Part shown: positions 11,356-31,936 of the stretch, in pieces
Layout of the letters: every line of letters begins with the position of its first letter
How positions within the stretch are numbered: position 1 is the first letter of the stretch
Assembly: GCF_024704835.1 (NCBI RefSeq)
Contig: NZ_JAMXBE010000006.1
Coordinates: 62,514-126,513 of the forward strand
Direction of reading: 5' to 3'
Origin: Parapedobacter tibetensis
GTDB lineage: Bacteria; Bacteroidota; Bacteroidia; Sphingobacteriales; Sphingobacteriaceae
DNA length: 64,000 nucleotides
Notes under the pieces: model-generated
The model's database searches: none
What the model was told of the DNA's origin: nothing
What the model saw: the letters and a program-made list of their open reading frames with translations, nothing else
Made by a program: the position numbers and the translations under genes

Positions 11356-14300
11356 ATGAAACAAAATTTCACCAAGGTGCTGGCGGCCATAGTGCTGGCG
11401 CTATATACATTGGAAGCCACCGGGCAAAGCCCGACGGATATCAGCATACCTCCCTTCGTAAACGTAGCGCCGAAAGCCCCTCAGTTTCCCTTAAAGACAG
11501 ACCGCTTGTTATACACGGATGAAGAGATAGAACAGGCGCGAAACAACATAAAACAGGATGCAACGGCAAAAAGTGTCGCAGATAAGATTGTCAGCGCAGC
11601 TGGTTATTGGCTGGACTGGCAGGATCAGGATATTGTCGATCTGATGACGGACGCACGGGTGCCACGCGCGTTTGATCTCAACGCAAACGGCTGTCCCATC
11701 CACGGTGCCGAAGTGTTTGCAAAAGGAGGTGCCTATCCATGGATTGTGGATCCGAAGAAACCCTTTCAGGTAAAATCGCCCATTGATGGACGTGTGTTCC
11801 CGGACAATGATTATGCAGCCTATTACAAAAGCGGGCTTAAGGAGAAGAAAGGATGGGACGCGAAATATGTGGATGATGGCTGGGGCTGGGTAGCGCCCGA
11901 TGGCGAACGGTATTGGTTTGTAGCGTATGCCAATCATTGGATTTGGCACCGCCACATCATTCCCGGAATCGGCAATCTTAGTAAAGCATATTTATTGACC
12001 GGAGACAAAAAATATGCGTACAAAGCCGTGTTGATGCTCCATCGGCTCGCAGAAGTGTATCCGTCGATGAACCATGAAGACCAATCCCGGTACGGGTTGA
12101 TGACCAGGGCGCGCGGAGGGGTGTACCGTGGCAAGATTATCAATGCGATCTGGGAAACCGCTACAGCTTCTGTAGCTGCTGCAGCCTACGACGCTGTATG
12201 GGACGCTATTGATGATCTTCCTGATCTGCATACTTCGCTGAACAAAAGCGGAATAGAAATCAGATCGTATATCGAAGCCAACTTCGTCGAAAATGCGTTG
12301 TTGGCGTATGAGCAGAACAAGATACTCGGTAATTTTGGTATGCATCAGGCCGCTGTACTGAATCTCATCATTGCGCGGCAATATGCCGAGCCTGAGCGGT
12401 ACCTCAATCATTTGTTGGATGATGCCGGACAGAACAGAAGTAAAATGGGCCTGCGCTATGCCTTGTATAATCAGGTTTTCAGGGATGGGCTCCCGCTTGA
12501 ATCACTCCAGTACAATTTTTTATGGATACGATACCTGACAAAAATCGCTGACCTGCTAAAGAAAAAAGGAGTTGACCTGTTTGACGAGCCACGGTTCAGG
12601 ATGCTGCTGGACGGCCCGATTCATTCGGTGGCAATCGGGAAATACACGCCGGCGTTGGGTGACGGAAGTGATGTGTTAGGCGGTATTACCGGTCGTTCCG
12701 CGGAAACCTATCAGTCTGCTTACCATGCGTATCAGGACGAGCGTTATCTGTCGTGGCTGGAGCCCGCTGATGCGAGGGGCTTTCCGTCTTTTGAATCCTT
12801 GTTCCGGTCAGCAAGTCCTGCGAAGAAACAGCAAAACAATGATGTTCGCGTGGTGCAACCTTTGCCTTCCCGTGTCTTTGCGGGATACGGATTGGGCATT
12901 TTGAATGACCCGGAAGACGACGTTGCGCTGGCACTCAAATACGGGATGCATTACGCCCATTATCATTGGGATTTTCTGAATATTGAACTGATGGCCAACG
13001 GTCAGAAGATGATGCCTGATCTTGGATATCCTGATGCCATGAATAACTATGTCAAAGGGATCGCTACCTGGTCGACAAATACCATTTCTCACAATACCGT
13101 CGTCGTCAATGCTTCGCGCCAAACACAGAACATTCCAGGAAGGTTACATCATTTTGCAGATGGCACGTTCGCCCGGAATATGGATGCGGAATCAGGGGCT
13201 TACCGGCAGGCATCCCAGTACAGGCGGAATGTCGTGATGGTGGCGGCGAACGATCAGCAGCATTATGTGGTCGACTTTTTCCACGTGCAGGGAGGAAAGC
13301 AGCACGATTATTCGCTGCATGGGCCTCCGGGCGAGGTCCTGCCGGTGGAAGGCGTTTGGAGTGAAAAACAACCGGGTACTTTGGCCGGAACGGATGTGAG
13401 TCTTGGTGAGATCTATGATAACCGGTTGCTGGATACCGCGGGCGAAAGAATCGGGTATCGCCGGTATGTGGGATCAGGTTACCAGCATTTGTTCCATGTA
13501 CAGCAACTGCGGCAAGGCAATGCATTGGTAGAATACCAGCATGTACTGGATTCAAATGCCCGTTTAAGGCTGCATATGCTTCCCGCTGAACACCAGGAGG
13601 TATTTCTGGCTGACGCCTACGATAAGCCACGTGCCAAAAACCATGTTGTAAAGTATATGATAGCGCGCCGCGCAAACCTTGCTCCCGAAAAGAGTGCCAG
13701 TACTTTTTCTGCTGTATTTGAAACGTACAAGACAAAACCTTACATCCGATCGGTGGAACATCATCCGCTGACTACCGGATCAGGTGCGTCTGTGAGGGTT
13801 GTAAGGAACGGTTTTTCAGACGTTATTATCTGCGATACCGTTGGCTCCGAAAAAGAGTTGCGGCAATACGGCATACAAACGGATGCGAATACGGCAGTAG
13901 TCACATTTGATGACAAAGGAAAGTTGACGCGTGTTTACTTCAGCGATGGAACGTATCTGAAATGTAAAGGACAATCGTTTGTCCGTAAACCGTTACGCGG
14001 CGAGGTGCAGGCAGTAGATATTGCCGCTAACCGGGTAACCATGACGTTCCCGCGCGGTACGGATCTCAAATCCATGGGAGGGCAGTCGGTCAGGACAGTG
14101 CATTTTACGAACGGACACCGCACCACGGTGCATCCGGCGTCTCTGCAGGTTGCGGTTGACGGGCAAGCGAGCCTGCATACAACTGATGACCTGCGTATGG
14201 GTTATTTCGGTGTGGCACAGGTTAAAGGGAATGCACTGACAACAGATACAGAGTTGAATTTTTATCATCATTATCGTGGATCAACCCTGGTAAATAAGGA

Positions 14301-14463
14301 TTTAGAACCTGTTGGGATGATTGTATCGGCAGAAAAACAAAAACTCACTCTGGATAAGGATGTGTCCGGTAAGGTGAGGAAGGCCGATAAATTATGGGTA
14401 TCTGATGTCGGTGTGGGAGATAAGGTGACGATAAAAACGGTATTCTCCTGGAGCCGTAAATAG
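11356..14463 (+). CDS. Heparinase II/III-family polysaccharide lyase, large form
   Basis: A secreted 1035-residue protein; I prefer the ATG at 11356 to the TTG at 11335 because it opens a clean signal peptide (MKQNFTKVLAAIVLALYTLEA, cleavage after TGQ). The middle is an alpha/alpha toroid (about 60-500). The heparinase II/III beta-sandwich begins near residue 527 with MHYAHYHWDFLNIELMANG and continues with TNTISHNTVVVN, which matches the family's HNTV signature. The C-terminal 200 residues are further beta structure. Such lyases cleave uronic-acid linkages by beta-elimination. The length is greater than usual for PL12 or PL17 (about 650-750). The exact PL family cannot be assigned by eye. It follows a 187-bp gap and is in line with the next lyase gene. 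Confidence 0.88.
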   Translation: MKQNFTKVLAAIVLALYTLEATGQSPTDISIPPFVNVAPKAPQFPLKTDRLLYTDEEIEQARNNIKQDATAKSVADKIVSAAGYWLDWQDQDIVDLMTDARVPRAFDLNANGCPIHGAEVFAKGGAYPWIVDPKKPFQVKSPIDGRVFPDNDYAAYYKSGLKEKKGWDAKYVDDGWGWVAPDGERYWFVAYANHWIWHRHIIPGIGNLSKAYLLTGDKKYAYKAVLMLHRLAEVYPSMNHEDQSRYGLMTRARGGVYRGKIINAIWETATASVAAAAYDAVWDAIDDLPDLHTSLNKSGIEIRSYIEANFVENALLAYEQNKILGNFGMHQAAVLNLIIARQYAEPERYLNHLLDDAGQNRSKMGLRYALYNQVFRDGLPLESLQYNFLWIRYLTKIADLLKKKGVDLFDEPRFRMLLDGPIHSVAIGKYTPALGDGSDVLGGITGRSAETYQSAYHAYQDERYLSWLEPADARGFPSFESLFRSASPAKKQQNNDVRVVQPLPSRVFAGYGLGILNDPEDDVALALKYGMHYAHYHWDFLNIELMANGQKMMPDLGYPDAMNNYVKGIATWSTNTISHNTVVVNASRQTQNIPGRLHHFADGTFARNMDAESGAYRQASQYRRNVVMVAANDQQHYVVDFFHVQGGKQHDYSLHGPPGEVLPVEGVWSEKQPGTLAGTDVSLGEIYDNRLLDTAGERIGYRRYVGSGYQHLFHVQQLRQGNALVEYQHVLDSNARLRLHMLPAEHQEVFLADAYDKPRAKNHVVKYMIARRANLAPEKSASTFSAVFETYKTKPYIRSVEHHPLTTGSGASVRVVRNGFSDVIICDTVGSEKELRQYGIQTDANTAVVTFDDKGKLTRVYFSDGTYLKCKGQSFVRKPLRGEVQAVDIAANRVTMTFPRGTDLKSMGGQSVRTVHFTNGHRTTVHPASLQVAVDGQASLHTTDDLRMGYFGVAQVKGNALTTDTELNFYHHYRGSTLVNKDLEPVGMIVSAEKQKLTLDKDVSGKVRKADKLWVSDVGVGDKVTIKTVFSWSRK

Positions 14464-14508
14464 TGATCGCTCCAGTGCGTACGATAATCTGGAAGTAGAA
14501 TAGCGACC

Positions 14509-16797
14509 ATGTTAATAAACCAGAAAATAAAGCGGTTGTGGTGTTTGTCGGTGATATTGACAGTGATAACTGTGGACGCTGTTTCACAGCACAAGCGCCT
14601 GTCAGTAAATCATCGGGCAACGCATCCGGTTTTTTCTCCGGATACAACAGGCATCATCGGTCTTAAACGATCGGTGGCCACGGTTATGGACCTTTCGGTT
14701 GATGAGCTGATCGGCCAGGTACCGGACGCCTCAGGGATTTTTTTTGTAGGTTGCCCCAACTGCCACGGCGGAGCGCAGGAAATGGGTGTACTGAGCTGGA
14801 AATCGGGTATGGGTGACCAGGTGCGTTGTAATTACTGCGATATGTTGTTCCCCAATGAGCATTTCCCCAATAATGGGAAAAAATTGATCATTGCACCAAG
14901 CGGGAAGCAACAGGTCTATCGCTATCATGAAGATGCCAACGGCCGGCAATATTTTTTTGAACCACATGCCTGGTATGACCGCTGGACATGGATACAAACC
15001 ATGGCAGACCAACTGGCAAGATTATGGTTTGCCACGCGTGATAACGCCTATGGTGACCGGGCAGCTGCTATCGTCGGGCGTTTTGCACAGCTATATCCGG
15101 ATTATGCAATCCGGTATGATTATCCGCATGCGCCGGTAAAATTCTTTCCGGCTGATCAGAAATGGCCTTATAAAGGAGTTGGGCCATACCGCGGTGCCAA
15201 ATGGAGCTGGTGGGGCTATATGGATATTCCTGTCACATTGGCAATGGCTTATGATGTCTTGCAGACGGGCTATGACTGGCGGCGTATGGATGCAGTTATC
15301 GGGCCAGGAACGGATCAACTGATTGAAAAGGATCTGCTGCGGCTTGGTTATGAGTTTACAACCGCGAATCCGGAGGTGTATACCAACATGTCGCCGCGTA
15401 CCTATCAAAGCATGATCCGCGTGGGCCGGGTATTGGGAGATCCTTCCATGGTGCATGAGGCTGTAAAACGTTTCCGGGAGTTCGTCTCTATGGTTTTTTT
15501 TGATGATGGCTGGTGGAAAGAAGGGACACCTTCTTATCATGATATGACCATTAACGGGGTGAAGGCGGTGGCCGATGCGCTGGCGGGTTATACAGACCCC
15601 CCTGGCTGGAAAGGGGAGCGTTTTGAAAATTTTGACCCGGAACAGGAAGTTCCGGTGTATAAAAAAGCACTGGCCGTCAGTAGGGAAGCCGTTATGCCAA
15701 ATGGACGGAAGATCCCCATCAATGATACCTGGTGGCACACACGTGGAGAAGCAACGGACAGCGGCGTATCTCATTTGTGGCCGTCGTTGGGCAATGCTGT
15801 CATGGGTGTGGGTACAGGTGAGGACCAGGTTATGCTCAATGTAAACTGGAGCGGCGACTTCGGCCATTCGCACGATGATAACGGATCCATTATCTTGTTT
15901 GCCGCCGGGCAGGAACTCTTGTCGGATATCGGATACACCCACACCCGGTATCGTGGATGGACGGTACATACGGCATCCCACAATACGGTGGTCATTAATC
16001 AACGCGGGCAGGATAAAGCTTCCGGTGGGCAGCAAGTAACCGGAAAACTATTGTTATATGACGATAAGCATCCGCACGTGAAGGTCATCGATGTGGATGC
16101 ATCTCCTGCTTACGCTTCTGCTGCCCGTGCTTACCGGAGGCAGCTGCTTTTGGTGCATGCCGCTCCGGGACGGGATTATGTAGTTGACCGCTTCGACGTG
16201 GAAGGGGGGCATGACCACGACTGGTTCCTGCACGGTATGTGTGAAGAGGAAGGGACATTGGAGACGAGTATTACGCTCGATAAGCCGTTAACAAGCCTGG
16301 TTCCTGCCTGGGGTGGGAATAACGGACCCAAAACACAATATGATACAGACCGGGAAGGCAGGCGTTTCCATGCCTACTGGCACTTACGTGATGTGCTCGG
16401 AGGGCAGGCCCTGCAACCGTGGACCGCAACGTGGCGCTATCGCAACGCAGGTTTGCGGACTCATTTGCTGTCCCCGGACAATACGCAGGTATTCCGGTTT
16501 CGTACCCCGTCCGTTAGGCGGGCCGGTGAAGACGGGAATAAACTGGATGACTTTTTCCGCCAGGGGCTTATGCAACGGCATTCGGGGGGCAAGTCCACAT
16601 TCCTTGCCATACACGAGCCATTCCGCAAAGAAACGTGGATCAGCGGTGTGCAGAAGGACGGCAACATCCTAGTGGTGCGCTATATACTGAACGGAACGGC
16701 GATTGAAGACAGGATCACGCTGGGTGATGGAAACATCCGGGTTTCTTCTTCTGCCGGATGGGATTACCAGGCAGAAGAGAGGCTGATAAATGAATAG
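14509..16797 (+). CDS. Heparinase II/III-family lyase with N-terminal Cys-pair motif
   Basis: Second lyase-type protein, 762 residues, with a signal peptide (LWCLSVILTVITVDAVSQ, cleavage about residue 27). Near residues 81-108 there are two CxxC pairs, VGCPNCHGG and RCNYCDMLFP, which look like a small zinc ribbon. The toroid follows (WYDRWTWIQTMADQLARLW and later MSPRTYQSMIRVGRVLGD). The catalytic sandwich begins near residue 445 with WSGDFGHSHDDNGSIILFA and ends its first part with TASHNTVVIN, the PF07940 signature. It lies 45 bp after the first lyase and probably forms an endo/exo pair with it. The substrate is inferred to be a uronic-acid glycan; the enzyme class is clear, the specificity is not. 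Confidence 0.88.
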   Translation: MLINQKIKRLWCLSVILTVITVDAVSQHKRLSVNHRATHPVFSPDTTGIIGLKRSVATVMDLSVDELIGQVPDASGIFFVGCPNCHGGAQEMGVLSWKSGMGDQVRCNYCDMLFPNEHFPNNGKKLIIAPSGKQQVYRYHEDANGRQYFFEPHAWYDRWTWIQTMADQLARLWFATRDNAYGDRAAAIVGRFAQLYPDYAIRYDYPHAPVKFFPADQKWPYKGVGPYRGAKWSWWGYMDIPVTLAMAYDVLQTGYDWRRMDAVIGPGTDQLIEKDLLRLGYEFTTANPEVYTNMSPRTYQSMIRVGRVLGDPSMVHEAVKRFREFVSMVFFDDGWWKEGTPSYHDMTINGVKAVADALAGYTDPPGWKGERFENFDPEQEVPVYKKALAVSREAVMPNGRKIPINDTWWHTRGEATDSGVSHLWPSLGNAVMGVGTGEDQVMLNVNWSGDFGHSHDDNGSIILFAAGQELLSDIGYTHTRYRGWTVHTASHNTVVINQRGQDKASGGQQVTGKLLLYDDKHPHVKVIDVDASPAYASAARAYRRQLLLVHAAPGRDYVVDRFDVEGGHDHDWFLHGMCEEEGTLETSITLDKPLTSLVPAWGGNNGPKTQYDTDREGRRFHAYWHLRDVLGGQALQPWTATWRYRNAGLRTHLLSPDNTQVFRFRTPSVRRAGEDGNKLDDFFRQGLMQRHSGGKSTFLAIHEPFRKETWISGVQKDGNILVVRYILNGTAIEDRITLGDGNIRVSSSAGWDYQAEERLINE

Positions 16798-16818: not shown

Positions 16819-18717
16819 ATGAATAGGTGCATCATTAACAAATCCTGCAAAAAATTGCAGATGCTATTACTCATTGCGGTATGCTTGCTGCCGACCACGA
16901 CCGTGTTGTCGCAGCCCGCTGAAAGCAGGTTCACGGATCATGGGGTAGTATCGCCGGCAAGTACATACCGCGGTGTCGTTACCACCGTTGACGGAGAGGG
17001 AAAGGATGTGCTGTTGGTGTGGTTGTTTGATGTGCGAGGCGGCTATGCGTTATTAATGATCGATGCCGAAACGGGCCATACCGAGCAGTTCCCTGTCCCT
17101 TTCAATAACCACAGGGGCGATAGCCCGTTTTCATCGCTGCTTTCGTCAACAGATAAGTTTTATAGCCATTTTAACGGTTACTTTGTGGAATTCGACCCCA
17201 AGAAGAGAGCCTTTACGTTCTGCGGCGAAAGCGCCCCCCAGATGGCTATGGGGATGACCGAAGACGACCAGGGTCGGATATGGGCGGTAACCTATCCAAA
17301 CAGCGGTGTAGTAAGTTTTGATCCCAAAACCCGTGAATTTACCGATTACGGATATGTTCATAAAGAAAACTGGGCCCAGTACCAGCGGTTCGTAGCTACC
17401 GACGACGCAGGCTGGCTTTATTTCGCGATGGGCAATACCCATACGCAGCTTGTCGCCTTTCATCCCGGCACACACGAAACCAAAGCTGTACTCCCCCAGG
17501 AAAAAAGAAAGCGGGGCATGGCCTATTTGTACCGTAACCACAACGGCAAAGTATACGGACAGGCTTTAAGAGATGCAAAAGAAGACTGGTACGAATTGTA
17601 TAAGGGAGAATTCAAATCTATAGGCACTGCGCACCAGGCTGATGAAAAACCCATACGCACCGGTATGCAGAACCTTTTTATCAAAGAGTTACCTAACGGG
17701 AAGTTGATCGAGCGGCTGGATCTTACAGAGCGGTTGCTGGTTATAGCAGATCCCAAAACCAGCACAACGAAGACCGTGCATTTTGATTATTCCAGTGAGG
17801 GGTCATGGATCATGGGGGTCGGCGCTTCGCCGGATGGTCAGGCGATCATAGGCGGCAGCTCGTTCCCCATGCGCCAATTCACTTATTATCCCGCCACGGA
17901 GCAATGGGGGCACCAGTCGGCATATGGGCAGTATAATGCCCTGGCCCGGCAAGGCCACCAGGCATTTTTTGGCTCCTATCCCGGAGGCAACCTGCTAGTT
18001 TGGGACGCGCAGAAAAAGCCGCAGCTCCTGGTCAAATGCGATCCGGTCATCTACCGCCCACACCGGGTGCTGGCGCACCCCGACGGCCAAACAATTGTCA
18101 TGGGTGGGGGGCCGGCTTATGGTTATACGGGCGGCGGTTTGCTGTTTTATGACCTGAAGTCAAAGAAGCACACGTTATTATCGGATTCCAATGTTGTGCT
18201 TGACCAGTCAACCATGAGTCTGGTGCCATTGCCTGGGCGGAAATTAGTAGGCGGTACCACCATCGCGCCCGGCACCGGGGGCGAGCGCAAAGCCAAACAA
18301 GGCGAGCTGTATATCATCGATATGGATACCAAGCAGGTAGAGTGGCGTTCGCCCGTCATACCGAATGTACAGAGTTATACCGATTTATGCCTGAGTGCCG
18401 ATGGTAAAGTATACGGTATTGCGGACCGGAAATGGTTTTTTGTTTTTGATCCCGACAGCAAAAAACTGCTGCACAGGGAAGATGTATCCGCGTTATTCGG
18501 ATTATCAGTTGCCGAACAGTCGCCGCGTGTATTTGTCCAGGGGCCTGAGGAGGTTATCTATATATTATTTGAGCACAATATAGGCCGCATTGAACCGTCC
18601 GCACCGGCTGTTACTCTGGTCAGTAAATCACCGGTGCACATACGTGCGGGGGGCGATTACCTGGACGGGCGTATTTATTTTGTAAGCGGATCACGCCTGT
18701 ATAGTTATACCTTATAA
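16819..18717 (+). CDS. Secreted beta-propeller protein of unknown function
   Basis: A 632-residue exported protein (signal about residues 14-31, LLLIAVCLLPTTTVLSQ). The mature chain is made of repeated beta-blade segments with phrases such as GRIWAVTYPNSGVVSFDPKT, GWLYFAMGNTHTQLVAFHP, GKVYGIADRKWFFVFDP and EVIYILFEHNIGRIEP. This is the pattern of seven- or eight-bladed propellers related to streptogramin lyase (Vgb) and oligogalacturonate lyase-like proteins. No catalytic residues can be assigned. Being 21 bp after two lyases in the same operon, it may be a propeller-fold lyase or a binding protein for unsaturated products; this is inference. It is the last gene of the lyase operon, with a 567-bp gap after it. 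Confidence 0.7.
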   Translation: MNRCIINKSCKKLQMLLLIAVCLLPTTTVLSQPAESRFTDHGVVSPASTYRGVVTTVDGEGKDVLLVWLFDVRGGYALLMIDAETGHTEQFPVPFNNHRGDSPFSSLLSSTDKFYSHFNGYFVEFDPKKRAFTFCGESAPQMAMGMTEDDQGRIWAVTYPNSGVVSFDPKTREFTDYGYVHKENWAQYQRFVATDDAGWLYFAMGNTHTQLVAFHPGTHETKAVLPQEKRKRGMAYLYRNHNGKVYGQALRDAKEDWYELYKGEFKSIGTAHQADEKPIRTGMQNLFIKELPNGKLIERLDLTERLLVIADPKTSTTKTVHFDYSSEGSWIMGVGASPDGQAIIGGSSFPMRQFTYYPATEQWGHQSAYGQYNALARQGHQAFFGSYPGGNLLVWDAQKKPQLLVKCDPVIYRPHRVLAHPDGQTIVMGGGPAYGYTGGGLLFYDLKSKKHTLLSDSNVVLDQSTMSLVPLPGRKLVGGTTIAPGTGGERKAKQGELYIIDMDTKQVEWRSPVIPNVQSYTDLCLSADGKVYGIADRKWFFVFDPDSKKLLHREDVSALFGLSVAEQSPRVFVQGPEEVIYILFEHNIGRIEPSAPAVTLVSKSPVHIRAGGDYLDGRIYFVSGSRLYSYTL

Positions 18718-19284: not shown

Positions 19285-20484
19285 ATGTCAATCAGAAAAT
19301 GGTTAGTCGCCCTTGGCCCGGGCATCGTTACAGCGGCTATCGTATTTGGCCCCAGTAAAATTACTATTACGTCCAAGATGGGGGCGATGTATGGGTATGA
19401 TTTGTTGTGGGTGGTGGTGGTCGCCATCTTTTTCATGATCGTTTTTACAAACATTGCTTCCCGTATTGGCGTGGCTACCAGACAATCACTGCTCAGTACC
19501 ATACGGGAAAAGTATGGCAAATGGGTCTCAGGGTTGATCGGCATCGGCATTTTTATGGTAGCAGCTTCATTTCAGGCCGGCAATTCAGTTGGCATTGGAA
19601 TTTCCATTGCTGAAGCAAGAGGCACCTCATCCGTTCCGTGGATCATCCTGTTTAACGTAATAGGTATTGCCCTGTTGTTTTTCCGTGATTTCTACAAAAT
19701 ACTAGAACGGCTAATGATAACCATAGTGGGGCTGATGTTGTTTGCGTTCCTTACTACAATGTTCTTGGCCCTGCCAGACATTAGTGGTATTTTGGCCGGT
19801 TTTGTCCCAACCGCACCGACAGGTTCGATTGGTTTGGTGATCGCATTTTTTGCGTCCTGCTTTTCCATTGTAGGAGCATTTTACCAAACTTACCTGGTGC
19901 AGGAACGGAAAAAGATCAGCCCGGGGCTGAATCTGGATAACAACAAAGGTGTGACCGGCATGATCATCTTGGGGTTGATGAGTGCCGTGGTGATGATCTG
20001 CGCGGCGGCCGTGCTACACCAGCAACAGATACCGGTCAACAAGGCGTCGGATATGGCAAAAGCGCTGGAGCCCCTGTTTGGCAGTTATGCCTCGCAGTTA
20101 TTTCTGATTGGACTGTTTGGAGCTTCTTTTTCATCGCTGATCGGTAACGCTACCATCGGCGGTTCCCTCTTGTCGGATGGGTTTGGATATGGCAGCCGGC
20201 TGGATTCCAAAGTAGTGAAATGGCTGATCGCTTTTGTGATGGTCACTGGTAGCGTGATTGCCATCGGTTTTGAAAAACCACCGCTGGAGATGATCGTATT
20301 CGCCCAAAGCGTGACCATCTTCCTGGTCCCTTTTATTGGTGTGGCCATGTATGCAATATCCTGTAACAAAACCTTGATGGGCAACTACGTGAGCCCACCG
20401 TTTATCCGCATAGTCGGTTTTGTGGGTCTGCTGATCCTGATTATGCTCGCCGTTTACAATTTCAATGAACTATTTTTAACATAA
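19285..20484 (+). CDS. Nramp-family-like membrane transporter without DPGN motif
   Basis: A 399-residue integral membrane protein starting at MSIRKWLVALGPG; longer frames upstream lack any membrane or family signal. The first helix, GPGIVTAAIVFGPSK, followed by GAMYGYDLLWVVVVAIFFM, aligns with TM1-TM2 of Nramp divalent-metal transporters (GPGF..DPGN..GA.YGY.LLW). The metal-binding DPGN is replaced by GPSK at residues 22-25. In the sixth helix region (ASCFSIVGAFYQ), the MPHN-type Met is also not evident. Ten or eleven membrane helices are visible. True Mn/Fe transport is therefore doubtful. The gene starts a four-gene cassette, 3 bp before the SDR gene, so it may move Mg or the organic acid used by the cassette. 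The substrate is unknown. Confidence 0.85.
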   Translation: MSIRKWLVALGPGIVTAAIVFGPSKITITSKMGAMYGYDLLWVVVVAIFFMIVFTNIASRIGVATRQSLLSTIREKYGKWVSGLIGIGIFMVAASFQAGNSVGIGISIAEARGTSSVPWIILFNVIGIALLFFRDFYKILERLMITIVGLMLFAFLTTMFLALPDISGILAGFVPTAPTGSIGLVIAFFASCFSIVGAFYQTYLVQERKKISPGLNLDNNKGVTGMIILGLMSAVVMICAAAVLHQQQIPVNKASDMAKALEPLFGSYASQLFLIGLFGASFSSLIGNATIGGSLLSDGFGYGSRLDSKVVKWLIAFVMVTGSVIAIGFEKPPLEMIVFAQSVTIFLVPFIGVAMYAISCNKTLMGNYVSPPFIRIVGFVGLLILIMLAVYNFNELFLT

Positions 20485-20487
20485 TAC

Positions 20488-21507
20488 ATGATGGATGATT
20501 TAACATTATTGGAGCAGGAAATACTAAAACCCTCACCGGTGCTGGTGGATGACATCAGCCGCATCCAGGGAGATATATTATTATTAGGCGTGGGGGGTAA
20601 AATGGGTCCTGCCATGGCCCGTGTAGCACGACAGGCAGCTGATATAGCCGGCAGTAGCCAGCGTATTATTGGTGTCTCGCGCTTCTCTGACGGGGATGCC
20701 CGCACGGCACTTGAAGCGGCGGGTGTGGAAACGATCGCAGCTGATCTGCTGAACGAAGCTGACCTTGCTGCACTGCCGGATGCCCCCAATGTGATCTACC
20801 TGGCAGGCCATAAATTTGGTACTACCGGGAAGGAGCCGTTTACGTGGGCCATGAACGCCTACCTGCCAGGCAGGGTGGCGGAAAAATATAGAAATTCTAA
20901 TATCATAGCCTTTTCCTCTGGCAATGTGCTCCCCTTCGTACCGGTAACATCCGGCGGCGTATCCGAGGAAACCAACCCTGATCCCATTGGCGAATACGCC
21001 CAATCTTGCTTGGGCAGGGAACGGATATTTGAATATTTTTCGCAGAAGAATAATACTCCCATGCTCATTTACCGGCTGAACTATGCCGTGGACTTCCGGT
21101 ATGGGGTAATGGTAGAAATCGCGAAATCGGTGCTCAGCGGTGAACCGATTGACCTGCGGACAGAAAACGTGAACGTGATCTGGCAGGGCGATGCTAATGA
21201 AATAGCGATCCGCTCGTTGCTCCATTGTGCATCGCCTGCAAAAATATTGAATGTAACGGGTCCGGAAACTGTTTCCATACGCTGGTTGGCCCAGCAATAT
21301 GGCCTGCGTTTTCAAAAAGAACCATTATTTATCCATGAAGAACAGCCTACTGCATTGTTGAGTAATGCATCCGAAGCCCACAAGCTCTTCGGGTATCCAA
21401 GGGTCACACTGAAGGAGATGATTGATATGACGGCATCCTGGTTACTCCAAGGAGGTAAATTGATTAACAAACCCACTCATTTTCAAGAGCGAGGCGGAAA
21501 ATTCTAA
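20488..21507 (+). CDS. NAD(P)-dependent SDR-type epimerase/dehydrogenase
   Basis: A 339-residue extended SDR enzyme. The Rossmann motif GVGGKMG is at residues 34-40, after a longer N-terminal tail than usual. NVIYLAGHK and FSSGNVLPFVP match the NAG and Ser strands of the family. The catalytic YxxxK is changed: YAQSC with Tyr170 and Cys174 in place of Lys. Loss of that Lys normally weakens or changes catalysis, so either another residue substitutes or the reaction is different. It lies 3 bp after the Nramp-like gene and 4 bp before the aldolase gene, a tight operon. A sugar or sugar-acid oxidation step feeding the dehydratase and aldolase is a plausible role, by context only. Confidence 0.85.
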   Translation: MMDDLTLLEQEILKPSPVLVDDISRIQGDILLLGVGGKMGPAMARVARQAADIAGSSQRIIGVSRFSDGDARTALEAAGVETIAADLLNEADLAALPDAPNVIYLAGHKFGTTGKEPFTWAMNAYLPGRVAEKYRNSNIIAFSSGNVLPFVPVTSGGVSEETNPDPIGEYAQSCLGRERIFEYFSQKNNTPMLIYRLNYAVDFRYGVMVEIAKSVLSGEPIDLRTENVNVIWQGDANEIAIRSLLHCASPAKILNVTGPETVSIRWLAQQYGLRFQKEPLFIHEEQPTALLSNASEAHKLFGYPRVTLKEMIDMTASWLLQGGKLINKPTHFQERGGKF

Positions 21508-21511
21508 GCAT

Positions 21512-22579
21512 ATGAAGACGATTACATTAGCGCAGCACAAACATGACCTGCTTCACAAAGGAATGGTTATCCCGGCACATCCGCTGGCTTTGGATGCCCA
21601 ACGGCACTTGGATGAAGATAGGCAGCGGATGCTGACCCGTTATTATATCGCTGCGGGAGCAGGCGGGGTAGCGGTGGGTGTACACAGTACCCAATTTGCC
21701 ATACGCAATCCAGGAATTGGCCTGTTCGAACGGGTATTGCGGCTGGCAGCAGAGGAGGTAGACCGATCTGAGGCGGCCGGTCATTTCCTGAAAATCGCTG
21801 GAATATGCGGCGATTTGGAGCAAGCAGTCGGAGAGGCACAAACCGCCTATCAGTTGGGATATGATATGGGGTTGCTGAGCATGGGCGGATTACAGGGGTG
21901 GGACGAAACACAACTATTGGAACGCACGGCAGCTGTCGCCCAGCATATACCCGTCTTTGGTTTCTATTTGCAACCCAGCGTAGGGGGCAGGGTGTTCAGC
22001 TATGATTTCTGGACAAAATTTATCGAAATCCCCAATGTGTTGGCGATTAAAGTAGCCGCTTTCAATAGATACCAAACACTCGATGTGATGCGGGCGGCCT
22101 GTTTTGCAAAAAAAGACATTGCATTGTACACGGGTAATGACGATAATATCGTCGCAGATTTACTGACAGATTATACGTTTGAGGTGGAAGGCCGTCCGGT
22201 GCGGAAACATTTCGTTGGGGGGCTGTTGGGACATTGGGGGGTATGGACACATTGTGCGGTGTCGCTACTGGAGCAGATAAAATACTGTCGGGCTTCAGGT
22301 TTCCGTGAAATGGATCGGTTACTGCAACTGGGCGTGCAGGTTACCGATATGAATGCAGCGATTTTCGATCCAGCCCACGATTTTCAGGGCTGTATTCCGG
22401 GTATCCATGAAATACTTCGGAGACAGGGATTACTTCAGGGGGTGTGGTGTCTCGATCCGGGGGAAAAACTGTCGCCAGGGCAGGATACGGAGATCAGTAG
22501 GGTTTGTGGAAATTATCCAAATCTTGTCGACGATGATTTTGTCGTTGATTTTTTTGGAAATCAGTATAGCAGTAGTTGA
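21512..22579 (+). CDS. DapA/NAL-family (dihydrodipicolinate synthase-like) aldolase
   Basis: A 355-residue class I aldolase of the DHDPS/N-acetylneuraminate lyase superfamily. The Schiff-base Lys is in LAIKVAAF at residue 180 and the catalytic Tyr in FYLQPS at residue 152, both at family spacing. The pyruvate-carboxylate motif GTTGE is not present; the equivalent stretch reads GGVAVGVHSTQF. The chain is about 50 residues longer than usual (300). So the lyase chemistry is likely but the ligand may not be pyruvate. It lies between the SDR and the enolase-superfamily dehydratase, whose expected product, a 2-keto-3-deoxy acid, would be its substrate. The downstream gene overlaps or follows within 23 bp. 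Confidence 0.85.
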   Translation: MKTITLAQHKHDLLHKGMVIPAHPLALDAQRHLDEDRQRMLTRYYIAAGAGGVAVGVHSTQFAIRNPGIGLFERVLRLAAEEVDRSEAAGHFLKIAGICGDLEQAVGEAQTAYQLGYDMGLLSMGGLQGWDETQLLERTAAVAQHIPVFGFYLQPSVGGRVFSYDFWTKFIEIPNVLAIKVAAFNRYQTLDVMRAACFAKKDIALYTGNDDNIVADLLTDYTFEVEGRPVRKHFVGGLLGHWGVWTHCAVSLLEQIKYCRASGFREMDRLLQLGVQVTDMNAAIFDPAHDFQGCIPGIHEILRRQGLLQGVWCLDPGEKLSPGQDTEISRVCGNYPNLVDDDFVVDFFGNQYSSS

Positions 22580-22602
22580 CCATACGAAAAATACAGCAGA
22601 AT

Positions 22603-23913
22603 ATGATACAAATCGCAAACACAGATTCCGCATTTGAAAGCGAACCTTTACGGATACCCTTCGGCTTCAAAGGTGCATATTTGACCACATTGTGGCAGGT
22701 CATATGCCGATTGGTCTCACCCACGGGCGATCAGGGCATCGGTCTGGCCACCCAAAGCGCATTGTATGCCGATGCCGAATTATTTGCACAACATGGGGAG
22801 GAGCAGAGCAATGCCTGGATGTATGCGCTCGTTGAAAAATCACTACAGCATTTGGGCAATACCCGTTTTGAACATCCCGTTGACATGATGGAGAAATTGC
22901 TGCCCCTAGCCATGCAAGAGGCTGTTAAACTTACGGGAAAACGAGACTTACATACCAACTTCAGTTACAATGCGTTGGTTAGCATAGACTATGCGGCCTG
23001 GCAGCTGTACGCAAAAGCGATCGGGCATCTAAATTTTTTTGAGATGATTCCCCAGGCGTATAAGGCTCCGTTTAGTTATCGGAATTCGAAGATTGGGATC
23101 ATGTTTCAGATATCCTACGATATGCCGCTGGAAGCGATAGAAGCTGCAGTGGATGAAGGATATTTTATTTTCAAAATCAAAACGGGGCATCCCGGCAATC
23201 AAGCGGAAATGTTGGAAAAGGATATGGCCCGGCTTACCCAAATCCACGAAATATTGAAAGAACGATATACTCCACATACCCCGGACGGTTTTATCCGATA
23301 TACCATGGACGCAAATGGACGTTATGAAAGGAAGGACACGTTGCTTCGGTACCTCGACCATGCCCGGCAGATTGGCGCACAAGCCCGGATATTGTTTTAC
23401 GAAGAGCCTTTTTCGATGGCCGATTCGCAAACCGTGGATGATATTGATATGGCCATTGCAGGTGATGAACGGATATTCGACGAACAAAGCGCCTTGGAAA
23501 GTATACAGCTTGGTTATAACGTGATCGTGCTGAAGAGTGTGGCCAAAACGCTCAGCACAACATTGAAGATTGCAAAAATTGCCTATGATCATGGTATCCC
23601 CTGCGTTTGTTCAGACTTAACGGTAAATCCCATCTTAGTTGAATGGCAGAAGAACCTGATCGCCCGTTTAGCCCCATTCCCAGCAATCAATATGGCAATG
23701 ATTGAAACCAATGGGGATAGTAACTACACACATTGGTTGCAAATGCTCACCTATCATCCATGCCATGAGGCACCATGGACGGTCCGCCATAAAGGCGCAT
23801 TTTATTTGGATGATACGTATTATGCATGCAGTGGGGGTATCTTCAAACCCTATCCACACTATGAGCGCCAACTTGGAGGGTTCGACACGATTGGGGCCAT
23901 TATAGATGAGTAA
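22603..23913 (+). CDS. Enolase-superfamily (mandelate racemase-like) sugar-acid dehydratase
   Basis: A 436-residue enolase-superfamily member. I chose the ATG at 22603; the TTG at 22576 overlaps the stop of the aldolase gene and adds only nine residues. The catalytic KxK is in IFKIKTG (Lys191, Lys193), and the metal ligands are in MDANG (Asp236), FYEEPF (Glu267/Glu268) and AGDER (Asp288/Glu289). The N-terminal capping domain has the usual length. Members dehydrate or racemise sugar acids. As the last gene of the cassette, dehydration to a 2-keto-3-deoxy acid for the DapA-like protein is the likely step. The substrate acid cannot be named. Confidence 0.88.
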   Translation: MIQIANTDSAFESEPLRIPFGFKGAYLTTLWQVICRLVSPTGDQGIGLATQSALYADAELFAQHGEEQSNAWMYALVEKSLQHLGNTRFEHPVDMMEKLLPLAMQEAVKLTGKRDLHTNFSYNALVSIDYAAWQLYAKAIGHLNFFEMIPQAYKAPFSYRNSKIGIMFQISYDMPLEAIEAAVDEGYFIFKIKTGHPGNQAEMLEKDMARLTQIHEILKERYTPHTPDGFIRYTMDANGRYERKDTLLRYLDHARQIGAQARILFYEEPFSMADSQTVDDIDMAIAGDERIFDEQSALESIQLGYNVIVLKSVAKTLSTTLKIAKIAYDHGIPCVCSDLTVNPILVEWQKNLIARLAPFPAINMAMIETNGDSNYTHWLQMLTYHPCHEAPWTVRHKGAFYLDDTYYACSGGIFKPYPHYERQLGGFDTIGAIIDE

Positions 23914-27162: not shown

Positions 27163-28515
27163 ATGAAAAATCCGGTTGATACAAGAAGAGATTTTATTAA
27201 AAAGGCAACAATTGGTACGGCTGCCCTATCACTAGGCGGTATACTCCCCGGTCTCAGTGCCAAAAGTTATGCCAATATCCTTGGTGCGAACGAACGTTTT
27301 CAAGTTGCCATAATGGGGGTCAATGCGCGCGGATTGGCACTGGCGAACAATTTTTCTGCACAGTCGAATTGTGAAGTTAGGTACGTTTGTGATGTGGATA
27401 ACCGGGCCGCTGAAAAGTGCATTTCCAGCGTAACAAAAATTCAACAGAAGAAACCCCAAGCGCAGCCTGACTTTAGGAAAGCACTGGAAGACAAGGAGGT
27501 GGATGCATTGATTGTTGCCACCCCGGATCACTGGCATGCACCCGCCGCTATTTTGGCTTCCAAAGCGGGCAAGCATGTTTACCTGGAGAAGCCTTGCAGC
27601 CATAATCCCAATGAAGGTGAACTATTGGTCGCAGTGCAAAAGAAGTACAACAACATCATCCAGATGGGCAATCAGCGCAGATCGTGGCCCAATGTTGTGC
27701 AAGCGATCCATGAGCTCCACAATGGAATTATCGGCAAACCCTATTTTGCTAAAACTTGGTATTCCAACAATAGGCCTTCAATAGGCATAGGCAAAAAAGC
27801 TGCTGTGCCTTCTTGGCTGGATTTCGATCTTTGGCAAGGACCGGCACCGCGAATGGCTTACAAAGACAACCTCATCCATTACAATTGGCATTGGTTTTGG
27901 CATTGGGGTACGGGCGAGGCGTTGAACAATGGTACCCATATGGTAGATCTTGCTCGTTGGGGCCTTCAAGTAGATTACCCCACAAAAGTAACTTCAGCTG
28001 GGGGACGATACCGTTACCAAGATGACTGGGAAGCCCCAGATACGCAGGTCATCAATTTGGAATTTGCGGATAAAAGCCTCATCACTTGGGAAGGACGCAG
28101 TTGTAATAGCCAAACTACAGATGGATCGAGCGTAGGGGTTCTCTTTTATGGAGAAAATGGCGCTTTGCAAATCGATGGAGGGAATGCGTACAAAGTTTTC
28201 GACCTCAAAAATAACCTGATAAAAGAGGTTAAAAATGATGTCACGATTGATGCACGCAACCTCACTAGCCCTTCCCAAGCACTGGATGCTATCCATATCC
28301 AGAATTTCTTTGATGGTATCAAAAATGGAAGCCAATTAAATGCAGACATCGTTAGTGGGCATATCAGCACCCTATTGGTACAGTTGGGTAATATCGCGCA
28401 ACGTAGCGGGGGATTGTTAAATACGGATCCTTCAAATGGCCATATTTTGAACAACCAAGAAGCACTGAAATATTGGAGCAGGGAATATGAACCGGGATGG
28501 GCGCCGACCGCATAG
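27163..28515 (+). CDS. Tat-exported Gfo/Idh/MocA-family oxidoreductase
   Basis: A 450-residue NAD(P)-dependent oxidoreductase. The start MKNPVDTRRDFIKKATIG is a Tat signal (R8, R9, F11). The Rossmann part has FQVAIMGVNARGLALA and YVCDVDNRAAEK; the family's EKP is in HVYLEKPCSHNP, with NGTHMVDLARWGL further on, giving the catalytic His region. Export with a bound cofactor is the rule for the GH109-like and related Bacteroidota members, which may use NAD for redox-assisted glycoside cleavage. A role on GlcNAc-containing oligosaccharides is inferred from nagA/nagB just downstream. A broken relative with the same upstream region lies at 24157. The permease gene follows after 44 bp. Confidence 0.9.
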   Translation: MKNPVDTRRDFIKKATIGTAALSLGGILPGLSAKSYANILGANERFQVAIMGVNARGLALANNFSAQSNCEVRYVCDVDNRAAEKCISSVTKIQQKKPQAQPDFRKALEDKEVDALIVATPDHWHAPAAILASKAGKHVYLEKPCSHNPNEGELLVAVQKKYNNIIQMGNQRRSWPNVVQAIHELHNGIIGKPYFAKTWYSNNRPSIGIGKKAAVPSWLDFDLWQGPAPRMAYKDNLIHYNWHWFWHWGTGEALNNGTHMVDLARWGLQVDYPTKVTSAGGRYRYQDDWEAPDTQVINLEFADKSLITWEGRSCNSQTTDGSSVGVLFYGENGALQIDGGNAYKVFDLKNNLIKEVKNDVTIDARNLTSPSQALDAIHIQNFFDGIKNGSQLNADIVSGHISTLLVQLGNIAQRSGGLLNTDPSNGHILNNQEALKYWSREYEPGWAPTA

Positions 28516-28559: not shown

Positions 28560-29885
28560 ATGAAAAAAGCTACCGCTATGGTTAGCGTAGACTCGCTTTC
28601 AAAAAGAGACACTACGGTATCCATCATTATCATCGGAATCCTGTTCTTTATATTTGGTTTCCTCTCATGGATCAATGCCATCCTGATCCCTTATTTCAAG
28701 ATTGCTTGTGAGCTCACGCATTTTCAATCCTATTTGGTTGCGTTCGCTTTTTACATTGCCTATTTCGTAATGTCTGTCCCCTCCTCATACCTGCTTAAGG
28801 CGATTGGTTTCAAAAAGGGGATGATGGTGGGTTTTATGGCCTTAGCACTGGGAGCATTCATCTTCATCCCTGCGGCCATGACCCGAACTTATGAAATATT
28901 CTTAGCCGGCTTATTCACCATTGGGGTCGGTTTGGCCATCCTGCAGACCGCAGCCAATCCCTACATCACCATATTGGGGCCCAAGGAACGTGCCGCTCAG
29001 CGCATCAGCATCATGGGTATCTGCAATAAGTTTGCTGGGATCGTTGCCCCATTATTATTTGCTGCGGCCGTATTGCGCCCTACGGACCAGGCCATGTTTG
29101 ATAGTCTGGCTGGCATGACCGAAACAGCAAGGGCCGCTGCACTGGATGAGCTGATCAGGCGCGTCATTATCCCCTATGCCGTAGTAGGCGCGTCATTACT
29201 GTTAATCGGTATCGGAGTCAGATATTCCCCACTTCCCGAACTAAATACGGAAAATGAAAGTGAAGAAGTTGCCGTTTCCAACAGCAGCAAGATGAGTATT
29301 TTCCAATTCCCACACTTAGTACTGGGAGCGGTGGCTATTTTTATCCATGTGGGTGCGCAAGTGATTTCCATTGATACCATCATCAATTATGCCGGTTCGA
29401 TGGGGATTTCATTGATAGATGCCAAAGTCTTCCCTTCATATACATTGTCTATGGCCATCGTGGGTTATTGCCTCGGCATTACCGTTATCCCCAGGTGGAT
29501 TAGCCAAACCAATGTCTTGCGATTGGTTACTGTCATGGGGATTGTACTTTCCTTGCTTATTGTCTTTGCCCGGGGAGAGGTTACTTTCCTGGGCCATACG
29601 GCCGATATATCCATTTGGTGCGTCGTATTGCTCGGAATCCCTAATTCATTGACATGGGCCGGTATCTGGCCCCTTGCTTTGGATGGTTTAGGGCGGTTTA
29701 CCAAAGTAGGTGCATCCTTGATGATTATGGGACTTTGTGGAAATGCGATTATGCCCTTGTTATATGGCTATTTTGCTGATTTACATGGATTACGACAGGC
29801 CTATTGGGTGCTGTTTCCTTGTTATTTATACCTCATTTACTATGCATTCTATGGCCATAAGATTCGGCGTTGGTCATTGAATTAA
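28560..29885 (+). CDS. nagP: Sugar MFS permease, NagP/GluP/FucP type
   Basis: A 441-residue, 12-helix major facilitator of the FucP/GluP group: FFIFGFLSWINAILIPYFK in the first helix, FVMSVPSSYLLKAIGFKKG in the TM2-TM3 region, and GLAILQTAANPYITILGPKE, a signature of this group. NagP-type members import GlcNAc across the inner membrane in Bacteroidota and Shewanella. The gene lies between the Gfo/Idh/MocA oxidoreductase and nagA, which makes GlcNAc the likely cargo. A GlcNAc kinase would be needed before NagA acts, and none is present in the window. The name nagP rests on context, and other hexoses remain possible. Confidence 0.8.
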   Translation: MKKATAMVSVDSLSKRDTTVSIIIIGILFFIFGFLSWINAILIPYFKIACELTHFQSYLVAFAFYIAYFVMSVPSSYLLKAIGFKKGMMVGFMALALGAFIFIPAAMTRTYEIFLAGLFTIGVGLAILQTAANPYITILGPKERAAQRISIMGICNKFAGIVAPLLFAAAVLRPTDQAMFDSLAGMTETARAAALDELIRRVIIPYAVVGASLLLIGIGVRYSPLPELNTENESEEVAVSNSSKMSIFQFPHLVLGAVAIFIHVGAQVISIDTIINYAGSMGISLIDAKVFPSYTLSMAIVGYCLGITVIPRWISQTNVLRLVTVMGIVLSLLIVFARGEVTFLGHTADISIWCVVLLGIPNSLTWAGIWPLALDGLGRFTKVGASLMIMGLCGNAIMPLLYGYFADLHGLRQAYWVLFPCYLYLIYYAFYGHKIRRWSLN

Positions 29886-29907
29886 AAGCTGTTAAAACGA
29901 AAAATAG

Positions 29908-31122
29908 ATGTCGGAAAGAAAAATAAAAATTGTGAATGGAACGGTGATTACACCGTATCGAATGATTAAGAATGGTTCGGTGTTGATTACCAATGGCGTC
30001 ATCACTGCAATAAATGATGCAGACATTACGGCAGCCGACGCGATAGCGATCGATGCTAGGGGACAATATATAGCGCCAGGTTTCATCGATATCCATGTAC
30101 ATGGCGGTGGCGGCCATGATTTTATGGATGGTTCTGTGGCGGGATTTTTAAAAATAGCTGAAACCCATGCGCACTACGGCACTACAGCGATGGTACCCAC
30201 TACACTGACCAGCGATAAAGGGTCGCTGCTCGATACGTTGGAAGTTTATGAAAAAGCACATCGGTTAAACAATGTTGGATCCCGTTTCTTGGGGATGCAT
30301 ATAGAAGGTCCGTATTTTTCCCTAAAACAACGTGGTGCCCAGGATGCGCGTTATATCCGGGACCCTGATCCTGCAGAGTATATGGAGATTTTAGAGGCTT
30401 CTTCTTCCATCGTGCGTTGGAGTGCTGCTCCTGAGAAAGCGGGCGCCATTCAATTCGGTCGCGTATTGCGTGATCGGGGGATTTTAGCTTCCGTTGCCCA
30501 TACCGACGCGGTTTATGATGACATGATAGAAGCGTTTGAAAATGGCTATACCTTGGCCACCCATTTATATTCCGCTATGTCTGGCGTATCGCGTAGGAAT
30601 GCGTTTCGATATGGGGGCGCGGTAGAAAGTGCTTTCCTTATCGATGAAATGGACGTTGAAATCATTGCTGATGGCAAACATCTTCCTGCAGAGTTGCTCA
30701 AACTGGTCTACAAAATCAAAGGCCCTGATCGGACAGCCTTGATTACTGATGCGATGCGGGCAGCGGCCATGCCATCGGGGAAAAGTGTATTGGGTAGCCT
30801 GCACGATGGTACAGAAGTGCTCGTGGAGGATGGTGTGGCAAAGATGCCCGATCGAAAGGCATTTGCTGGAAGTGTGGCCACGGCCAATCAATTGGTGCAT
30901 AATATGGTCGATATGGCTGATATTCCATTGATTGATGCGGTGCGGATGGCCACGGCCACTCCGGCCCGCATCATGGGTTTGGGCAGTCAGATGGGCGGCA
31001 TAGCGGTGGGTAAGCAAGCGGACATCGTCATCTTTGACAAGCATATAAATATACATACCACCATGGTAGGCGGTTCCGTAGTTTACCAACGGGAACAAAC
31101 AACATGGAAAGAAACTATTTAG
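29908..31122 (+). CDS. nagA: N-acetylglucosamine-6-phosphate deacetylase
   Basis: A 404-residue cytosolic amidohydrolase that removes acetate from GlcNAc-6-phosphate. GFIDIHVHGGGGHDFMDG near residue 55 carries the family HxHGG motif; GMHIEGPYFSLKQRGAQD carries the metal-binding Glu; SVAHTDAVYDDM and ATHLYSAMSG carry the metal His residues, and LITDAMRAAAMP the catalytic Asp. The length is normal for NagA. The gene starts 22 bp after the permease and ends 13 bp before nagB, so the three are one transcript. Confidence 0.95.
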   Translation: MSERKIKIVNGTVITPYRMIKNGSVLITNGVITAINDADITAADAIAIDARGQYIAPGFIDIHVHGGGGHDFMDGSVAGFLKIAETHAHYGTTAMVPTTLTSDKGSLLDTLEVYEKAHRLNNVGSRFLGMHIEGPYFSLKQRGAQDARYIRDPDPAEYMEILEASSSIVRWSAAPEKAGAIQFGRVLRDRGILASVAHTDAVYDDMIEAFENGYTLATHLYSAMSGVSRRNAFRYGGAVESAFLIDEMDVEIIADGKHLPAELLKLVYKIKGPDRTALITDAMRAAAMPSGKSVLGSLHDGTEVLVEDGVAKMPDRKAFAGSVATANQLVHNMVDMADIPLIDAVRMATATPARIMGLGSQMGGIAVGKQADIVIFDKHINIHTTMVGGSVVYQREQTTWKETI

Positions 31123-31135
31123 CACGTTAGTAAAA

Positions 31136-31936
31136 ATGTCTCACATATCAAGTAAAGCAATTCAAGAGCGAAAAGTTGATTCATTAGTGGTCAAGGAATA
31201 TGCTAATCGTATGGAATTGGGAGATGCAGCTGCTAGGGCAGTCATCGATACCATAAACCAACTCCTTGAGCATCGACAAACGGTGAATATCGTATTTGCT
31301 GCTGCGCCATCCCAAAATGAATTTTTGGAAGCATTGATACTGGCCGATGAAGTTGACTGGTCACGGATTAACGCATTCCATATGGACGAGTATATTGGAC
31401 TGGCGGAAAGTGCCCCCCAAGGGTTTGGGAATTTTCTGAAGGAACGAATTTTCGCAAAGGTCCCATTCCATTCAGTACATTATCTCGACGGCAATAACCC
31501 AGATCCTCAAAAGGAGTGCTTGCGTTATGCAGACCTGTTGGATAAATATCCCACAGATATTGTTTGCATGGGAATAGGGGAGAATAGCCATATTGCATTC
31601 AATGATCCACATGTGGCCGATTTCAACGACCCTGAGCCAGTGAAAATCGTGGATCTCGACCTGGAATGCAGGCAGCAGCAGGTGAATGATGGGTGTTTCG
31701 CGGCCCTTAAGGAAGTGCCATCCTACGCATTGACATTGACGATTCCCACGTTGCTCGGTGCCCAGTATATCTTCTGCATGGTGCCGGGAAGCAATAAGGC
31801 TAAGGCAGTACGTCATACCCTAGAAGAAGCGGTCAACCCGGTTTATCCTTCGACTATTTTAAGGAGGCATCCACAGGCCGTTTTGTTTATAGATAAGGAT
31901 AGCGGAGCGTTGTTGGAAAGTCATACAAATTTATAA
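31136..31936 (+). CDS. nagB: Glucosamine-6-phosphate deaminase
   Basis: A 266-residue NagB-type isomerase/deaminase that turns glucosamine-6-phosphate into fructose-6-phosphate and ammonia. RINAFHMDEYIGL and VCMGIGENSHIAFNDP are the family's substrate-binding and catalytic signatures (Asp of FHMDEY; His of GENSHIAFND). TLTIPTLLGAQYIFCMVPGSNKAKAV is the conserved C-terminal strand and loop. Together with nagA and the permease it takes GlcNAc into glycolysis. The gene is followed by a small inverted-repeat element and not by another catabolic gene. Confidence 0.95.
   Translation: MSHISSKAIQERKVDSLVVKEYANRMELGDAAARAVIDTINQLLEHRQTVNIVFAAAPSQNEFLEALILADEVDWSRINAFHMDEYIGLAESAPQGFGNFLKERIFAKVPFHSVHYLDGNNPDPQKECLRYADLLDKYPTDIVCMGIGENSHIAFNDPHVADFNDPEPVKIVDLDLECRQQQVNDGCFAALKEVPSYALTLTIPTLLGAQYIFCMVPGSNKAKAVRHTLEEAVNPVYPSTILRRHPQAVLFIDKDSGALLESHTNL

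Follow-up and report, generated by a model that had tools for sequence, protein, structure and literature searches.

Gene organization of the locus

We analysed a 64,000-nucleotide stretch of the Parapedobacter tibetensis genome (contig NZ_JAMXBE010000006.1, positions 62,514 to 126,513), referred to here as the window, and focused on a cassette of four forward-strand genes within it. These encode an Nramp-like permease, an extended short-chain dehydrogenase/reductase (SDR), a Schiff-base protein resembling dihydrodipicolinate synthase (DHDPS, DapA) and N-acetylneuraminate lyase (NAL), here called the aldolase-like protein, and an enolase-superfamily protein (Table 1). An earlier reading of this DNA (the original prediction) had described four genes of these families within a few bases of each other, and this holds: the intergenic spacers are 3, 4 and −4 bases, and Pfam recognizes the permease, the SDR and the enolase-superfamily protein, with the aldolase-like protein falling below its family cut-off. 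Whole or reduced to its core, the group is found again in many genomes, a co-occurrence on which the original prediction depended. The core is the Nramp-SDR-aldolase trio, and the enolase-superfamily gene is accessory to it.

Spacers of 567 and 761 bases separate the cassette from the next large open reading frames (ORFs) on either side. We place the start of the permease gene at the ATG at 19285, the mechanical ORF beginning earlier, with GTG at 19120; the enolase-superfamily gene starts with TTG, and its next in-frame ATG is nine codons downstream. The source genome comprises 5.98 Mb in 85 contigs, and SusC/SusD-type neighbour genes suggest Bacteroidota.

Table 1. Coordinates of the cassette and of other features of the window
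Feature	Position	Strand	Length	Matches and remarks
Nramp-like permease	19285..20484	+	399 aa	PF01566, 9.2e-72, 242.5 bits (cut-off 29.8)
Extended SDR	20488..21507	+	339 aa	PF01370, 5e-6, 26.5 bits (cut-off 20.9)
Aldolase-like (DapA/NAL-like) Schiff-base protein	21512..22579	+	355 aa	PF00701, 0.0019, 17.4 bits, below the cut-off of 22.1
Enolase-superfamily protein	22576..23913	+	445 aa	PF13378, 3.6e-14
Gfo/Idh/MocA oxidoreductase	27163..28515	+		Match to a twin-arginine translocation (Tat) signal; a counterpart occurs in 14 of 31 Nramp-SDR-aldolase loci
NagP-like major facilitator superfamily (MFS) transporter, NagA-like amidohydrolase, NagB-like isomerase	28560..31936	+		
Two heparinase II/III-like proteins	11335..16797	+		PF07940, 7.5e-10 and 3.6e-14
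Exported beta-propeller-like protein	16819..18717	+		Weak Pfam matches only
DegT/DnrJ-type aminotransferase	5418-6779			Tat-like leader
Short ORF	24303-24623			By eye, its start is similar to the N-terminal region of the Gfo/Idh/MocA oxidoreductase (27163..28515)

The same genome holds a second copy of the Nramp, SDR and aldolase-like genes on contig C3 (73, 79 and 68-69% identical, respectively). Behind this copy lies a broken enolase-superfamily remnant (L003:9183-9589), in which residues 11-146 are spread over two frames, one of them interrupted by stops. The four-gene order was thus once present on C3 too, where the three core genes have kept their reading frames open in the absence of the enolase-superfamily gene. 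Two further, partial Nramp-like copies lie upstream of the window without SDR-aldolase (L004:3341-4231 and G000:C56:43890-44063, 249 and 58 residues).

Recurrence of the core

In 45 of the 46 fetched loci bearing the aldolase-like gene, an SDR gene stands on the same strand no more than 1 kb away; the 46th (L095) stops at a contig edge. Nothing stands between the two genes in 41 of these loci, and one gene of GNAT or TetR type does in the other four (L031, L033, L034 and L036). Outside the window's phylum, the loci come from Bacillota, Planctomycetota, Actinomycetota, Pseudomonadota and one Opitutaceae bin, which we take to belong to Verrucomicrobiota; the pair spans about six phyla. A tblastn search of plasmids found relatives of the aldolase-like protein, 48-65% identical, in 20 records, 12 of which we opened. 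The pair is accompanied by ABC, MFS or tripartite tricarboxylate (TTT) transporter genes in nine of these 12: sugar ABC genes in L027, L030 and L037, TTT genes in L033, MFS genes in L032 and L035, and ABC genes with an NMT1-type binding protein in L031 (by Pfam) and in L034 and L036 (by clustering with L031 or with each other). No transporter is evident in L028, L029 and L038 (L034 and L038 carry no annotation), and none of the 12 contains an Nramp gene.

Closer to home, the permease accompanies the pair. Among 100 relatives we found 17 full-length members of its group, 53-100% identical, followed by a gap down to the next full-length match at 25%. SDR-aldolase adjoins 16 of the 17, and the 17th (G435) adjoins NagA-NagB-NagP genes; a search of the same 100 genomes with the aldolase-like protein likewise gave 17 places, 16 of them with Nramp. 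In a phylum sample of 395 genomes, all five full-length Nramp matches of at least 46% identity adjoin the aldolase-like gene; the next match, at 37% (G171), is on a different contig from its aldolase-like gene, near Gfo-type genes. Nine more members, from genomes chosen for having the enolase-superfamily gene, comprise eight beside SDR-aldolase and one (G541) next to NagA-NagB and not far from a NagP-type gene. The distance matrices of the permease, SDR and aldolase-like proteins agree over 23 loci (r 0.61-0.75, reached in 0 of 5000 permutations, with species kinship uncorrected). Chance grouping of the cassette genes is ruled out by this co-occurrence across genomes. In the open-licence literature, judged short of full texts, we recognized no description of the SDR-aldolase pair or of an Nramp-linked sugar pathway.

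The enolase-superfamily gene occurs in 40 of 399 genomes of the family and the aldolase-like gene in 96 (apparently the same 399, by their handles); both occur in 39 genomes versus 9.6 expected (Fisher p 2e-26, kinship uncorrected). The single genome with the former alone, G570, gives a partial match in an assembly that is 82% complete. The two genes are at most 400 bases apart in 20 of the 39 genomes, at most 40 kb apart in eight, and farther apart or on other contigs in 11. Because the enolase-superfamily gene is absent from 57 of the 96 genomes with the aldolase-like gene, it is an add-on and not an obligate step, and we rejected it as an obligate fourth member.

We also considered that it might be independent of the core, given nine loci (L100-L108) that have it without SDR-aldolase. 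This was rejected because all nine genomes hold Nramp-SDR-aldolase elsewhere: seven were searched for Nramp, with seven positive, and G398 and G432 have the trio as well. Eight of these nine loci carry cupredoxin and GSDH/PVC-heme-type genes, and several of their enolase-superfamily proteins have Tat-like leaders; a periplasmic reaction is possible there. By a simple pattern, Tat-like leaders are found in 15 of 26 enolase-superfamily proteins, the window's copy not being among them.

An Nramp clade without the metal motifs

In a tree of 50 proteins, 24 Nramp rows form a clade (support 99/95) apart from nine canonical DPGN rows and ten GPGT rows, with long branches making the deeper order unsure. 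The window's protein shares the Pfam family of canonical Nramp metal transporters, but neither of their metal motifs, DPGN in transmembrane helix 1 (TM1) and MPH in TM6, occurs in any of the 24 clade rows; both are present in the nine canonical rows of the same alignment. The clade has GPSK (21 rows) or GPGS (three rows) in TM1; the window's protein reads VFGPSKITI there and ASCFSIVGAF in TM6. It is probably the transporter of the cassette.

The original prediction knew of no described pathway with an Nramp-like transporter, a statement now outdated. Corynebacterium glutamicum cannot grow on 5-oxoproline without PxpT, an NRAMP-family protein that is the likely uptake route for this compound, and the authors leave room for metal transport; in Bacillus subtilis, deletion of YcsG blocks 5-oxoproline use (PMC13274462; this and the other PMC sources are represented here by part of their text). 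As in the cassette, an Nramp-related protein is encoded here among genes for the catabolism of an organic solute. The likely counterparts of these proteins in the window's phylum, the GPGT proteins, differ: they are 27-30% identical to the window's permease and fall in another clade (PxpT itself is outside the comparison). They adjoin LamB/YcsF (pxpA-type) genes in all five loci tested (L114, L115, L117, L120 and L122), and none of 20 window proteins scanned matches LamB/YcsF. A Salmonella sugar-acid paper was discarded as a precedent, since in the text at hand the word Nramp refers to the mouse genotype (PMC12445098).

Other reports point to metals. YcsG, an Nramp-related protein of a pxp operon, has been argued to import Mn2+, and the earlier evidence on it is said not to have ruled out a polar effect (PMC10448178). 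EleNRMT, also without the motif, carries Mg2+, and a figure legend in the same paper describes the Nramp-related groups beyond NRMT and MntG as entirely uncharacterised (PMC12873925); an outgroup and NRMT have been placed beside the metal carriers (PMC9606685). For the window's clade an organic substrate is thus plausible and, given PxpT/YcsG, not without precedent; a metal is kept in play by the Mn2+ report on YcsG and by EleNRMT.

Could the permease, then, import Mg2+ or Mn2+ for metal-dependent enzymes of the locus, with the organic substrate entering otherwise? Its PF01566 membership, the precedents of EleNRMT and YcsG, and the Mg2+ that enolase-superfamily enzymes need all fit. However, DPGN and MPH are missing from the whole clade, the enolase-superfamily gene is in only eight of 31 Nramp-SDR-aldolase loci, and organic-solute transporters take the place of Nramp in nine of the 12 opened plasmid loci of other phyla. 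We therefore consider metal import unlikely to be its task.

Active-site residues

The original prediction that three of the four proteins deviate at key motifs is borne out by the permease (DPGN, MPH), the SDR (YxxxK) and the aldolase-like protein (GTTGE). Across 28 aligned SDR sequences, GxxGxxG is kept (G34, G37 and G40 in 28/28), as are S143 and Y170 (28/28). YxxxK is lost: position 174 is Cys in 26 and Val in two, and is followed by G176-R177-E178. In L058, outside this alignment, the residue is Ile. The best solved SDR relative is the TerB oxidoreductase (6nd7; 1.3e-10 with a profile), also an extended SDR, from which the cassette SDRs differ by this replacement of the Lys.

Profile comparison places residues 17-215 of the aldolase-like protein on NAL, the best solved relative being 8u8w (1.1e-9), and leaves the residues after about 217 unmatched. 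We aligned 30 sequences, out of 46 or more loci, leaving out the most distant (L058, 34%). Invariant in all 30 are K180, H58, T60, Q61, R186, Y187, N209 and D210; K180 aligns with the NAL lysine and is the Schiff-base residue shared with the DHDPS/NAL family. In contrast, the GTTGE-type carboxylate motif of that family is replaced in 30/30 by V57-H58-[ST]-T60-Q61 (VH[ST]TQF; GVHST in the window's copy), and the catalytic Tyr of NAL falls on an invariant F151 in the printed alignment, where the neighbouring Y152 (28/30) could serve instead. Given this different polar pocket, the enzyme probably does not act on a 2-keto-3-deoxy acid bound in the customary manner.

In 25 enolase-superfamily sequences, the KxK lysines (K200 and K202) and the acidic metal ligands (D245, E276, D297 and E298) of the superfamily are present in 25/25, and K320, K324, D347, T349, E377 and N379 are likewise invariant. 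KxK and the acidic metal positions align with 3tj4 and in part with 3jva. No His is invariant among the 25, with H224 and H394 nearly so; a typical acid-sugar dehydratase needs a His base on the second face. The nearest solved entries are the dipeptide epimerase 3jva and 3r0k, at about 0.002 (profile), and the 'mandelate racemase' 3tj4, at 5e-4 (single sequence). These E-values are weak, and the cassette protein differs from such entries in its extra invariant residues and in the Tat-like leaders of its relatives. Its NCBIfam matches, to o-succinylbenzoate synthase (1.7e-6) and L-talarate/galactarate dehydratase (1.8e-5), are both far below cut-off. A firm assignment to the muconate lactonizing enzyme (MLE) type was withdrawn, because two alignments disagree on K320: one sets it on the second-face lysine of 3jva, the other a single residue away. 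The third metal ligand is an Asp in the MLE type, and here D297 and E298 are both invariant. The 'mandelate racemase' of a Nitratireductor locus and its Glaciihabitans relative resemble the cassette protein at the profile level (hhalign E 2e-6, probability 89.5).

These residues bear directly on the complete sugar-acid route originally predicted, in which the SDR would oxidise a sugar, the enolase-superfamily protein would dehydrate the aldonate to a 2-keto-3-deoxy acid, and the aldolase-like protein would cleave the latter to pyruvate and an aldehyde. The right superfamilies stand in one operon with the Schiff-base lysine kept, the weak matches to L-talarate/galactarate dehydratase and to 3tj4 point the same way, E298 occupies the mandelate-racemase-type third-ligand position in the 3tj4 alignment, and amidohydrolase-2 and sugar dehydrogenase genes are found nearby in relatives. 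But the enolase-superfamily protein has no invariant His in 25 sequences and is encoded in only 39 of the 96 genomes with the aldolase-like gene, the aldolase-like protein lacks the pyruvate-carboxylate motif, and the SDR lacks YxxxK. We find the complete route improbable, while keeping from that prediction one functional unit with a probable transporter, an oxidation theme and a possibly new substrate.

Genes accompanying the permease

A gene for a dehydrogenase-cytochrome c fusion occurs in 18 of 31 Nramp-SDR-aldolase loci, always on the same strand and directly before Nramp in 11, and in 0 of 23 aldolase loci without Nramp; its identity rests on PF07995 and cytochrome c matches in the three proteins scanned. 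At least one gene of NagA, NagB, NagP, GH20 or GlcNAc-2-epimerase type is present in 16 of the 31 versus 0 of the 23. Such genes are also present in both Nramp loci without the aldolase-like gene (G435 and G541), and the window has NagP-, NagA- and NagB-like neighbours too. We treat the dehydrogenase and hexosamine counts as leads and not as independent tests, because flanks were unequal, many loci are related, and 13 of the 23 come from other phyla.

In relatives, genes of the Gfo type and for 3-keto-disaccharide hydrolases stand close to SDR-aldolase and recall the 3-keto-glycoside pathways; a difference is that the word dihydrodipicolinate is absent from the main text describing them (PMC10628242). 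As a separate observation, L-serine ammonia-lyase genes occur in three of 46 aldolase loci, and M20-type genes in four of 31 Nramp loci and two of 13 loci of other phyla, a hint, taken as a lead only, of a nitrogen-bearing product.

Polysaccharide breakdown must also be weighed, since two heparinase II/III-like genes lie upstream of the cassette and chondroitinase-B-like genes lie near the trio in L143. The SDR and the aldolase-like protein might process lyase products, by 5-keto-4-deoxyuronate reduction and 2-keto-3-deoxygluconate cleavage. The genome, however, has two KduI-family genes and one KDPG-aldolase-family gene elsewhere, so the ordinary route does not depend on the cassette; the incomplete gene tables of ten annotated plasmid stretches list no polysaccharide lyase next to the pair; and the motif losses of both enzymes argue against these reactions. 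We give this explanation little credence.

Proposed role

We propose, with a probability of roughly 0.5, that the cassette works as a module for taking up and breaking down an oxidised derivative of a sugar or amino sugar. Gene order, conservation, residues and co-occurrence are observed; transport, reactions and substrate we infer from the sequences. First, oxidation of a compound would take place outside the cytoplasm; in many relatives the enzyme would be the glucose/sorbosone-type dehydrogenase-cytochrome c fusion encoded in the locus. Second, the Nramp-related protein without metal motifs would import the resulting organic acid or keto compound. Third, its conversion in the cytoplasm would fall to the SDR and to the DapA/NAL-like enzyme, which would work through a Schiff base at K180. 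The enolase-superfamily protein may act as an accessory on a carboxylate substrate, by epimerisation, cycloisomerisation or elimination; in many relatives it is predicted to be exported by Tat and would then act before uptake.

A more specific version is correspondingly more tentative. It holds that organic acids derived from sugars, perhaps from N-acetylhexosamines, enter through an undescribed Nramp branch. A periplasmic sugar dehydrogenase-cytochrome c would be coupled to this import, joined in some genomes by a Tat-exported enolase-superfamily protein, and the import would feed a phylum-spanning SDR and Schiff-base pair with new active-site chemistry. An Nramp clade tied to one catabolic pair would make the carriage of organic solutes by Nramp-fold proteins directly testable. 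We came across no function assigned to the pair, which spans about six phyla, so that identifying a single substrate would carry over to the annotation of many genomes.

Several points weigh against the uptake-and-breakdown module, beginning with the Mn2+ report on YcsG and the Mg2+ transport by EleNRMT given above. Six of eight genus-g5 genomes with the aldolase-like and enolase-superfamily genes are without a GPSK-type Nramp gene, so the permease is not obligatory. No dehydrogenase gene of the fusion type is found in the first 40 kb of the window, and of the 11 such genes directly before Nramp in other loci, eight belong to related genomes that were selected because they have the enolase-superfamily gene. 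The L058 relative of the aldolase-like protein reads GAHTGEF in the GTTGE region and keeps the lysine. Neighbour sets differ widely, and therefore several substrates are possible. Finally, a single-sequence structure model of the aldolase-like protein was discarded for its mean pLDDT of 42.3.

Other features of the window

There are fewer promoter-like sites than in shuffled sequence (5 versus 11.2) and more terminator-like sites (13 versus 6.5), but the latter are mostly inside genes. The heparinase II/III-like genes appear to form a transcription unit separate from the cassette. The short ORF downstream of the cassette looks like a gene remnant. A loose blastp cluster of the beta-propeller-like protein includes Bacillota and Actinomycetota members near SDR-aldolase; stricter tblastn did not pick up its relatives near the SDR-aldolase of other phyla. 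In L143, the chondroitinase-B-like proteins are encoded at 799-2178 and 10906-12294 near a dehydrogenase-Nramp-SDR-aldolase run, one of them directly after the aldolase-like gene. The DegT/DnrJ-type aminotransferase has relatives in three SDR-aldolase loci (L052, L005 and L038).

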